DNA from: Stutzerimonas stutzeri
Lineage (GTDB): Bacteria > Pseudomonadota > Gammaproteobacteria > Pseudomonadales > Pseudomonadaceae
Assembly: GCF_024448895.1 (NCBI RefSeq)
Contig: NZ_JAMOIC010000004.1
Location: 124,001-188,000 of the forward strand
Reading direction: 5' to 3'
DNA: 64,000 nucleotides
Both the position numbers and the translations under genes were made by a program. This document shows, in pieces, positions 9,290 to 57,999 of this stretch; the stretch's first letter is position 1; every line of letters starts with the position of its first letter. The notes under the pieces were generated by a model. It was given only the letters and a program-made list of their open reading frames with translations. It searched no databases and had not been told where the DNA came from.

Positions 9290-9543
9290 TACCGATGTGC
9301 ATGGCGGTTCTTGGAATCGCGGCGGTACTCAACATCGTGCGGCTAGTCCAGGGGCCGGACATGCCTGACCGGGTTTTGGCGCTCGACACGCTCTACATCA
9401 ACGCGCTGGCCCTGATCGTCCTGTTCGGCATCTGGCTGGCATCCGATCTGTTCTTCGAAGCTGCTCTGCTCATCGCAGTGATGGGCTTTGTCAGCACCGT
9501 GGCTGTAGGTAAGCACCTTCTTCACGGCGAGATCATCGACTGA
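9274..9543 (+). CDS. mrpF: Mrp-type Na+/H+ antiporter subunit F
   Basis: 89 residues with three membrane helices. The family core VQGPDMPDRVLALDTLYIN (about 25-43) carries the conserved acidic residue of the MrpF family, which structural work on the complex places in the sodium pathway. It starts inside the end of mrpE, nine bases precede mrpG, and no terminator interrupts the series. Confidence 0.93.
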   Translation: MLTYVIPMCMAVLGIAAVLNIVRLVQGPDMPDRVLALDTLYINALALIVLFGIWLASDLFFEAALLIAVMGFVSTVAVGKHLLHGEIID

Positions 9544-56051: not shown

Positions 56052-56567
56052 ATGAACAAACTTTTCAAAACTTCCCTCCTTGTCGCCGCCATGCTTCCTG
56101 CGATTGCAGTTGCCGCACCTGTGGCAGGTGATCGAGAAGTAACTCTGGGTGGCGCGGGCAGCAGCGATAAGAGCTTCGACGATACGGTGTTCTCCGTACA
56201 GGGTAGTTGGGGTACTTATCTGGACGAAGCCTCCATGTGGGGTGTCCGTCAGACAGTAAACGCACGTGATTCCGAGGGCGAAAGCGTGCAGTTCGATGGC
56301 TCCACCCGTGTGTTCTACGACTATCACTTCGGTAGCGGTAATACCCGTCCCTTCGTAGGTGTAAGCGTCGGCGGCATCTATGGCGAAGAGGTCGATGAGA
56401 CCTTCATGGGCGGCCCGGAAATCGGAATCAAGCATTGGGTGCAGGACAAGACCTTCATCACTGCTATGGCCGAGTATCAGTTCCTGTTCAAAAGCGGGAG
56501 CGATGCGCAAGACCGTTACGATGATGGCGCGTTCTTCTACAGCGTAGGTATCGGTTACAACTACTAA
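56052..56567 (+). CDS. Small outer-membrane beta-barrel-like protein, exported
   Basis: 171 residues. A signal peptide (MNKLFKTSLLVAAMLPAIAVAA, cleavage near AVA-A) is followed by alternating polar and hydrophobic strands rich in Gly and Tyr, ending in the aromatic C-terminus SVGIGYNY typical of outer-membrane barrels. The size suits an eight-stranded barrel of the OmpX/OmpW type. No function can be assigned. AAGAGG precedes the ATG. A strong hairpin follows. Confidence 0.75.
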   Translation: MNKLFKTSLLVAAMLPAIAVAAPVAGDREVTLGGAGSSDKSFDDTVFSVQGSWGTYLDEASMWGVRQTVNARDSEGESVQFDGSTRVFYDYHFGSGNTRPFVGVSVGGIYGEEVDETFMGGPEIGIKHWVQDKTFITAMAEYQFLFKSGSDAQDRYDDGAFFYSVGIGYNY

Positions 56568-56640: not shown

Positions 56641-57078
56641 TTAATTATAAAGCTCGTTGGTCATGTCAGCCTTTACCAGTTGCTTCAGATGATTCTGCAA
56701 TGCCAGCCCTGGCTCGTCATATTCTGAAGTGATCATGCAATCCCCCATTGACTGAGAATTCTTCCTGAACCGGATTTGGTTTATTTGGGAAGACGTAGAG
56801 GTCGGGCGCACGCAAAATGTTTCATGCTGATTCGAGAGCTTGTAGAGCAGTAGACGGATATTGATCTCAGAAAGGCTGTCGCCGATTAACAGGACGGCTT
56901 TGCTCAAGTTGTCCGTGTATAACTTGATATCGAGCGGCGTTTCGAATTGGAGTCTTTCGTAGTAACTCGTCTCATCCAGCACGATGAGACATCGTCATCG
57001 AAATCACTATGCAACTTGACGATCTGCCGAACTCCATCTCGCGCCTCACCGGATCGCCGGCATTGGCGATCACAACTC
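56641..57078 (-). pseudogene. Decayed SIR2-like gene, C-terminal remnant in several frames
   Basis: Pieces of one SIR2-family protein follow each other in three frames on the minus strand. They are NAGDPV, then ARDGVRQIVKLHSDFDDD, then VLDETSYYERLQFETPLDIK and KAVLLIGDSLSEINIRLLLY. These fit the late part of SIR2-like domains (IVKLHGDFDD, YYERLxFETPLDIKL, LFIGYSLSDINIRxLLYKL). Single missing bases near 57046 and near 56984 explain the frame changes. The last 113 codons (56641-56982) remain open from a GTG and could still make a fragment. The N-terminal NAD-binding part is missing, joined instead to the HAM1-like remnant. Base composition is clearly AT-richer than the flanks. SIR2-like domains of this type occur in antiphage systems; that role is inference. 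Confidence 0.75.
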
Positions 57079-57541
57079 GGCAAAGATGCAGAGGTAGCCG
57101 TCGGGAATGGACACCTCGTCCCACTCGAAGCCTTCGCTGGCGGCTGGCGTGCAGGCAATTCCTGCCGGTCACTTCGCCTATGAAGAAATGCCGCTTGCGC
57201 CCGTCGCAGTAGCCAATAAGCGTGCGCGACACTGCTGAAGTATCGTCCAGGCTGCCAATCAGATCGGAGAAGCGCACCGCATGCAGATTGCCGCAGAAGG
57301 TTTGCGTCAAACCGCCTGGAGATTCATTGAGGCTGATGTAAGGCAGGAGTGATCGACGAAGACCGGTTTGCCAATCAGTTTGAAAAGCCGCGAACAACGT
57401 GTCACTCACTAACTGATTGAGGTCTTCGATCTGTGTTTCGACGATACGCACCGGAAATTTGATGATCTCGATCCCGCTCTGCCAAAATTCTTCCGCGTTG
57501 CGGATTTTCTGTTCATTGGCCGACGCATAGCGGATTTTCAT
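57070..57541 (-). pseudogene. Decayed HAM1-like (RdgB-type) NTP pyrophosphatase
   Basis: The start MKIRYASANEQKIRNAEEFW has the S/T-x-N-x-x-K signature of inosine triphosphate pyrophosphatases. The single open frame (189 codons from 57541) is not the ancestral one throughout. Between about 57386 and 57340 the right protein, FKLIGKPVFVDHSCL, lies in another frame; one extra T in the coding-strand run TTTT and one missing T later shift out and back. The natural continuation ESPGGLTQTFCGNL then resumes. Near 57160 an extra A causes another shift; reading on in the corrected frame gives GRIACTPAASEGFEWDEVSI and PDGYLCIFAEL, then a stop at 57070. The last about 25 family residues are missing. Three indels in one short gene show decay. 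It follows the truncated haemoglobin gene by 23 bases. Confidence 0.78.
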
Positions 57542-57564: not shown

Positions 57565-57999
57565 TCAGTGGCCGTGCGGACAGGCAAGCCGGCCCGCTTG
57601 CACGATGCGTTGGGCGGGTACCCGCAGTTGCGCCAGCAGATAGTCCGCGAAATCAGCGGAATAACCCTGCCTTTCGATGGCGAGGGCCATGCATTCGAGC
57701 CAGGCGTCGTGCTCGGCTTCAGCCACCTGCCAGCGGGTATGAAACTGCGGAATGTTGATGCTGCCGTATCGCTCTGCGTAGCGGCGTGGACCGCCCAACC
57801 AGCCACAGAGAAACGCCGCCAACCGCTCGCGTGGCGCGCGCAGGTCTTCAGGATAGAGGCGACGCACGCAGTTGGCCCGTTCATGCTCATCCATGATCTG
57901 GTAGAAATCGTTTACCAGCCGGGCGATGCCGGATTCACCTCCTGCGGCGATAAAAGACGCGTCAGCGGTGCCGAAGGGGAGGGGGCCGGTTTCACTCAT
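57565..57999 (-). CDS. Group II truncated haemoglobin
   Basis: 144 residues. The helical segment RRLYPEDLRAPRERLAAFLC and GGPRRYAERYG match group II 2-on-2 globins. The proximal histidine aligns with FHTRWQV, and the distal-pocket tryptophan (G8) with HDAWLECM. The usual RMRH motif is changed to IPQFH, so heme-pocket behaviour may differ. These proteins bind oxygen or nitric oxide in the cytoplasm. The start MSETGPLPF at 57999 is chosen by family length; the frame continues open to 58185. It is divergent from the stress-protein gene 124 bases away. Confidence 0.88.
   Translation of the reverse strand: MSETGPLPFGTADASFIAAGGESGIARLVNDFYQIMDEHERANCVRRLYPEDLRAPRERLAAFLCGWLGGPRRYAERYGSINIPQFHTRWQVAEAEHDAWLECMALAIERQGYSADFADYLLAQLRVPAQRIVQAGRLACPHGH

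Follow-up and report, generated by a model that had tools for sequence, protein, structure and literature searches.

A probable komB–komC pseudogene pair in Stutzerimonas stutzeri and its intact relatives without KomA

In a 64,000-nucleotide stretch of Stutzerimonas stutzeri DNA (the window), the minus strand between positions 57541 and 56671 carries a HAM1-family gene joined to the end of a SIR2-family gene through a deletion of about 460 bp. Our best reading of this locus is that it is a pseudogenised komBC pair, the remnant of a KomA-less module related to the Kongming anti-phage system. We think the account as a whole, in which the intact relatives of this pair would encode an NADase triggered by deoxyinosine triphosphate (dITP), is likely to be right. 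What is new here is that KomB and KomC appear to be kept under purifying selection without KomA in two bacterial groups.

A fused and frameshifted gene pair between two conserved genes

A preliminary description of the window reported a decayed HAM1-like plus SIR2-like locus at this place, and tblastn searches with the proteins of an intact orthologue, using the window remnant as a one-sequence database, confirmed it. The locus and its flanks are laid out as follows.

57073..57541, minus strand: komB remnant (HAM1 family), residues ~1–158, frameshifted, ATG at 57541; located by tblastn
57047..57073, no strand: deletion junction; ~24 last komB codons and ~132 first komC codons gone (~460 bp)
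56671..57047, minus strand: komC remnant (SIR2-family NADase), residues ~133–262, frameshifted; located by tblastn
57565..57963, minus strand: bacterial globin gene, conserved flank; start provisional (Pfam Bac_globin 1.3e-21)
56052..56567, plus strand: gene for a 171-aa protein, conserved flank; no Pfam match

KomB residues 1–129 and 54–158 matched in two frames between 57541 and 57073 (E = 1.8e-58 and 3e-13), and KomC residues 133–153 and 154–262 matched, again in two frames, between 57047 and 56671 (E = 1.9e-8 and 3e-39). Relative to the intact orthologue the komB remnant is 72% identical across residues 1–129, and the komC remnant is 81% identical across residues 133–153 and 68% across 154–262. 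The TTNYD motif of KomC has gone with the deletion and HGDF has become HSDF. Both the frames and the alignment indicate that the reading frame shifts and rejoins once more within the final third of the SIR2 remnant; the five single-base indels counted earlier are thus an underestimate. The 171-aa flank protein is probably exported and, to guess from its letters, perhaps of outer-membrane type.

In relatives (e.g. G055 and G042) the two matching blocks are separated by ~455–480 more bases than in the window, and the flanking genes, which lie 1003 bp apart in the window, are spaced by 1503–2078 bp in 34 relatives with an intact pair. From these spacings we conclude that a deletion of ~460 bp plus many small changes produced the fusion, in agreement with the earlier claim that a deletion had removed the 3' part of HAM1 and the 5' part of SIR2. 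When the broken frames were searched against Pfam unmended they gave only SIR2_2 at E = 0.035 and no HAM1 match, whereas the intact orthologues from the same genus matched both families (Ham1p_like 3.5e-34, SIR2_2 4.2e-23) and make the assignment clear. The patch was also said to be richer in AT than its flanks; the difference is real but mild (GC 0.512 in the remnant, 0.582 in the window), and three intact pairs have a GC content of 0.54–0.56 within loci of 0.57–0.60.

Because the source is a 78-contig draft, some of the frame changes could be assembly errors. The large deletion and an excess of amino-acid changes argue against that account: over a stretch free of frameshifts, 42 of 50 residues of the sister KomC are preserved in the window, as expected once constraint is lost, compared with 48–50 in six intact members of the genus.

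The pair corresponds to KomB and KomC of Kongming

The KomC protein of the sister species matched the PDB entry for KomC (8zsf) over residues 1–261 of 263 (E = 3.6e-109), and its KomB matched that for KomB (8zsg) over residues 1–179 of 182 (E = 1.3e-58). A prophage copy is 61% identical in KomC and 51% in KomB, and its KomA is 100% identical to the KomA of an E. coli operon (L163). Besides full-length homology of both proteins, the pair shares with Kongming an identical gene order, close or overlapping genes and the same catalytic motifs. Judged by this homology, the pair is KomB–KomC of the published system, and the suggestion that it might be an unrecognised one can be set aside.

The source paper for Kongming (KomABC) is Zeng et al. 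(Science 2025, doi 10.1126/science.ads6055). As described in two further papers (PMC12948488, PMC12774641), dITP is produced by KomA together with one phage and one host kinase, and dITP bound by KomB activates KomC, which then destroys NAD+. Kongming is described as depending on KomA for starting dITP synthesis. The intact Stutzerimonas orthologues encode a SIR2 NADase of ~264 aa with the Asn and His motifs, broken in the window copy, and directly 5' of it a HAM1-family protein, which by analogy may bind dITP. An adenosine deaminase 5' of komB was found in neither the Stutzerimonas nor the Erwiniaceae loci, and the Stutzerimonas pair also differs from Kongming in occupying a fixed chromosomal site rather than a prophage or island.

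The KomC motifs TTNYD and KxHGDF were kept in all 92 proteins checked. KomB belongs to the same family as the RdgB/ITPA pyrophosphatases (its Pfam match is that given above) but scores under the NCBIfam cut-offs, and at position 65 it carries His where the archaeal ITPase PH1917 has the Asp of EDSGL, the residue that is catalytic in RdgB/ITPA enzymes. Across 92 loci this position was His in 87 and Tyr in one; three were unreadable and one lacked KomB. With His in 87 of the 88 readable proteins, and with a review stating that KomB activates KomC on binding dITP, the earlier idea that the HAM1 protein clears unusual NTPs is probably wrong. The Tyr is found in a Stutzerimonas KomB (L201, genome G052) whose locus lacks the usual flanks. 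A second, more distant HAM1–SIR2 pair has solved structures (PDB 9v0g and related entries), and in its HAM1 protein the ITPase Asp is likewise replaced by His.

KomC shares its NADase domain with Thoeris ThsA, DSR2 and other SIR2 NADases (PADLOC ThsA, E = 9.6e-28), but the 263-aa KomC has no extra sensor domain and its regulation resides in a separate HAM1 partner. On a Nitratireductor plasmid (L041:6937-8394) the gene directly 5' of a related SIR2 gene encodes a NUDIX hydrolase of the YffH/AdpP family and not a HAM1 protein.

KomB and KomC are retained without KomA

From a contig scan that yielded 383 related loci we took the best 80, ranked by similarity to a Pantoea protein; chosen in this way, their proportions do not equal natural frequencies. 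A HAM1 match lies directly 5' of the SIR2 gene in 79 of these best 80 of 383, in several families, and thus the prediction of adjacent intact relatives forming a two-gene nucleotide-surveillance unit was sound. The one locus without a HAM1 match is L112, and two more match no more than the final 44 residues of KomB: L121, on a complete chromosome, and L123, owing to a contig end. Under strict criteria, 76 of the best 80 loci have a full and open KomB and 78 such a KomC; the KomC misses (L092, L112) are late match starts, and the KomB of L127 has an in-frame stop. In nine junctions inspected the komB and komC frames were close or overlapping. The KomC proteins of L121 (Halomonas sp. Y3) and L123 (Halopseudomonas bauzanensis), members of two families, are identical, suggesting recent transfer.

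A KomA match was present in 18 of the best 80 of 383 loci. In 17 of them a full KomA abuts or overlaps the komB start, and the remaining one (L130) has a mere fragment. Excluding L123, whose contig ends just 5' and leaves no room for KomA, 79 of the best 80 are informative and 61 of these have no KomA match: 41 resemble the Erwiniaceae (Pantoea, Mixta, Erwinia and loci as similar), 17 are of Stutzerimonas type, and the other three are L121, L129 and L134. A search of 56 Stutzerimonas genomes for a close KomA found none; in 55 the matches were partial and at the ~30% typical of ordinary deaminases, and one gave nothing. Ten Pantoea and Mixta genomes likewise gave best matches of just 32–36%. 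The E. coli and prophage copies inspected do have KomA.

In the KomC tree the Stutzerimonas sequences and their g6 neighbours form one clade (18 rows, 100/99) and the Erwiniaceae sequences another, apart from it (13 rows, 100/100), and at least four changes of the label 'no KomA' are required. The earliest branch is the E. coli KomABC row, which makes repeated loss of KomA likely, although the length of this branch leaves its placement less sure. In Chitinimonas taiwanensis (L130, near 9291-9435; G070 C19:126935-127437) pieces of KomA with stops lie beside open KomB and KomC genes, and here KomA loss is apparently under way.

Low ratios of nonsynonymous to synonymous change indicate that the pair has been retained without KomA. 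Median pairwise dN/dS was 0.166 for KomB and 0.063 for KomC among 16 Stutzerimonas rows without KomA, 0.08 and 0.036 among Erwiniaceae rows without KomA, and 0.095 and 0.057 among 15 KomABC rows. Pairs outside a dS of 0.05–1.5 were dropped, leaving for KomB and KomC respectively 105 and 57 of 120 Stutzerimonas pairs, 40 and 61 of 78 Erwiniaceae pairs, and 29 and 29 of 105 KomABC pairs. The Stutzerimonas KomB value exceeds those of the other two groups. Of 76 KomB positions invariant in the KomABC type, the Stutzerimonas clade retains 41 and the Erwiniaceae 64, while for KomC the Stutzerimonas clade keeps 95 of 103. The loss of invariant KomB positions together with the high dN/dS suggests that the ligand of the Stutzerimonas KomB might differ from that of the KomABC type.

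In the literature covered (open-access full text and few subscription papers) we found no experiment or paper on KomBC without KomA, though one may have been published elsewhere.

A fixed chromosomal site in Stutzerimonas

Among the 56 genus genomes, 40 have a KomC without internal stop (one split by contig ends), and in all 40 KomB is full and open; the remaining 16 comprise the window, with its decayed KomC, and 15 genomes with no match. In 34 of these 40 genomes the pair lies between the two genes that flank the remnant in the window. Matches to the globin gene occur in 49 and to the 171-aa flank protein in 41 of the 56 genomes. These shared flanks show that, within the genus, the site is not at a break in gene order as described earlier, and they rule out an acquired island at such a break.

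A family sample of 248 genomes had KomC (E <= 1e-30) in 45, comprising 39 Stutzerimonas and 6 of ~193 others; KomA lay beside KomC in two of these six, was absent in three (genus g6), and one was cut by a contig end. The KomC of G191 lies 238 bases from a contig end, so this genome is uninformative for KomA and KomB. KomC was found in 5 of 394 Enterobacterales genomes (E <= 1e-40). In E. coli, 80 of 5426 genomes matched the Rahnella pair in a DNA search, and the same kind of search with the Pantoea pair as query found nothing; the two E. coli regions inspected have an adenosine deaminase upstream and adjoin phage genes or an integrase. Among 11 loci on viral contigs, the five close relatives all have KomA and KomB and the other six are distant SIR2 proteins.

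The fixed position and vertical inheritance of the Stutzerimonas pair are unlike those of a typical mobile defence gene. Stutzerimonas are denitrifiers, with the nitrosative stress chemistry that this entails, and the pair might serve not in phage defence but to raise an alarm when nitrosative stress deaminates purine nucleotides. The fixed site and the purifying selection without KomA would fit such a stress device, as would a same-strand globin gene 55–559 bp upstream in 27 of 33 Stutzerimonas-type rows (some genomes being represented twice). However, the globin gene stays where the pair is lost (G027, G032, G044), and it was not found next to the pair in L034, L142, L195–L197 and L201. On balance we regard a stress device as unlikely.

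Decay and loss of the pair within the genus

In a 19-genome comparison the nearest kin of the window is G055 (S. zhaodongensis; 99/99), in which the pair is intact. Comparison of the same site across relatives, as had been recommended, showed that, besides the 34 genomes with an intact pair, two (G027 and G032) keep a stub of komB and one (G044) looks clean. The stubs consist of the first ~225 bp of komB between the conserved flanks (L210 and L211, ~1000-1310), with E values of 2e-25 (G027) and 1.5e-18 (G032) against 0.63 for the best of 60 shuffled sequences. These sites, of 416 and 410 bp, were considered as empty, a description rejected on alignment in favour of a komB stub in both. The site in G044 is 385 bp long and has a single match to the pair, of 46 bp (E = 0.012), which by its coordinates falls inside the flanking gene; we call the site clean with reservation over this weak match.

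G027 and G032 are mutual sisters and are placed elsewhere in the 19-genome tree than the window. A single decay common to the window, G027 and G032 was rejected (p-AU 0.00018). The stubs represent decay of the kind seen in the window, but further advanced, and the best reading of these sites together is that the pair has been lost repeatedly within Stutzerimonas.

It could be argued that a complete KomABC once stood at this site and that KomA was lost with the rest, its absence being merely part of the decay of the window. A full KomA does adjoin komB in 17 of the best 80 of 383 loci, with a fragment in one more, and the first position of the E. coli KomABC row on the KomC tree, albeit on a long branch, implies that KomA was probably lost somewhere in the lineage. 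A recent loss is nevertheless quite improbable: no Stutzerimonas locus examined has a KomA match and none of the 56 genomes has a close KomA, and so the loss of KomA is older than the decay of the window. A chance adjacency and fusion of two unrelated neighbouring genes is hardly credible given a HAM1 gene directly before SIR2 in 79 of the best 80 of 383 loci from several families, close or overlapping frames in nine junctions, and the presence of both proteins in common PDB entries.

A RADAR-associated pair in Rahnella

One of the loci without KomA has a different neighbour. In Rahnella inusitata (L134:242-7254) rdrA, rdrB, komB and komC follow one another in this order on the same strand; a gap of 148 bp separates rdrB from komB, and the Rahnella RdrB scores 1060 bits against the PADLOC RdrB profile. 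According to a study of RADAR (PMC9994260), RdrB accumulates ITP and dITP during infection. RADAR thus resembles Kongming in having a dITP maker, and since RdrB yields dITP, the Rahnella KomBC would read the RADAR product. This single case is possibly a RADAR–Kongming hybrid with KomBC as a dITP-triggered effector.

Further RdrB-like matches were found in seven plasmid records and two E. coli genomes; a KomB or KomC match was sought at the RADAR-like loci of both E. coli genomes and four of the seven plasmids, and none was found. Neither rdrA nor rdrB had a match among the Stutzerimonas loci examined. We found no paper on KomBC with RADAR in open-access full text, and such a description may exist elsewhere.

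Proposed mechanism and significance

By the mechanism that we propose, KomB, with its HAM1 fold and His in place of the ITPase Asp, would be a dITP receptor and not a pyrophosphatase. Binding of dITP to KomB would switch on the SIR2-type NADase KomC, which would empty the cell of NAD+ and so stop growth and any resident phage. We infer that the Stutzerimonas pair functions like the KomABC pair and that its dITP would come from a source other than KomA, be it phage or host enzymes or chemical deamination. A defence role for the Stutzerimonas pair is suggested by homology only. The pair in the window was presumably destroyed because a device that depletes NAD+ but comes with no signal maker is either costly or dispensable. 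The window is nonetheless a useful natural loss, with an intact pair in a sister species and further stages of decay in other species at the same site.

The retention of a receptor and an NADase without KomA implies either that another source feeds the receptor or that the module has a second job. More tentatively, and as an idea that we hold to be possible rather than probable, KomB–KomC may be a free-standing alarm for deaminated purines that can be plugged into KomA or RdrB or can exist without a dITP maker of its own. The module of Stutzerimonas and Erwiniaceae would then be an inherited checkpoint, borne on the chromosome or a megaplasmid, at which dITP, whether produced by phage or host metabolism or by chemical damage, leads to destruction of NAD+. 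If this is true, the sensing of base-modified nucleotides would be a modular function common to Kongming and, in one genome, RADAR.
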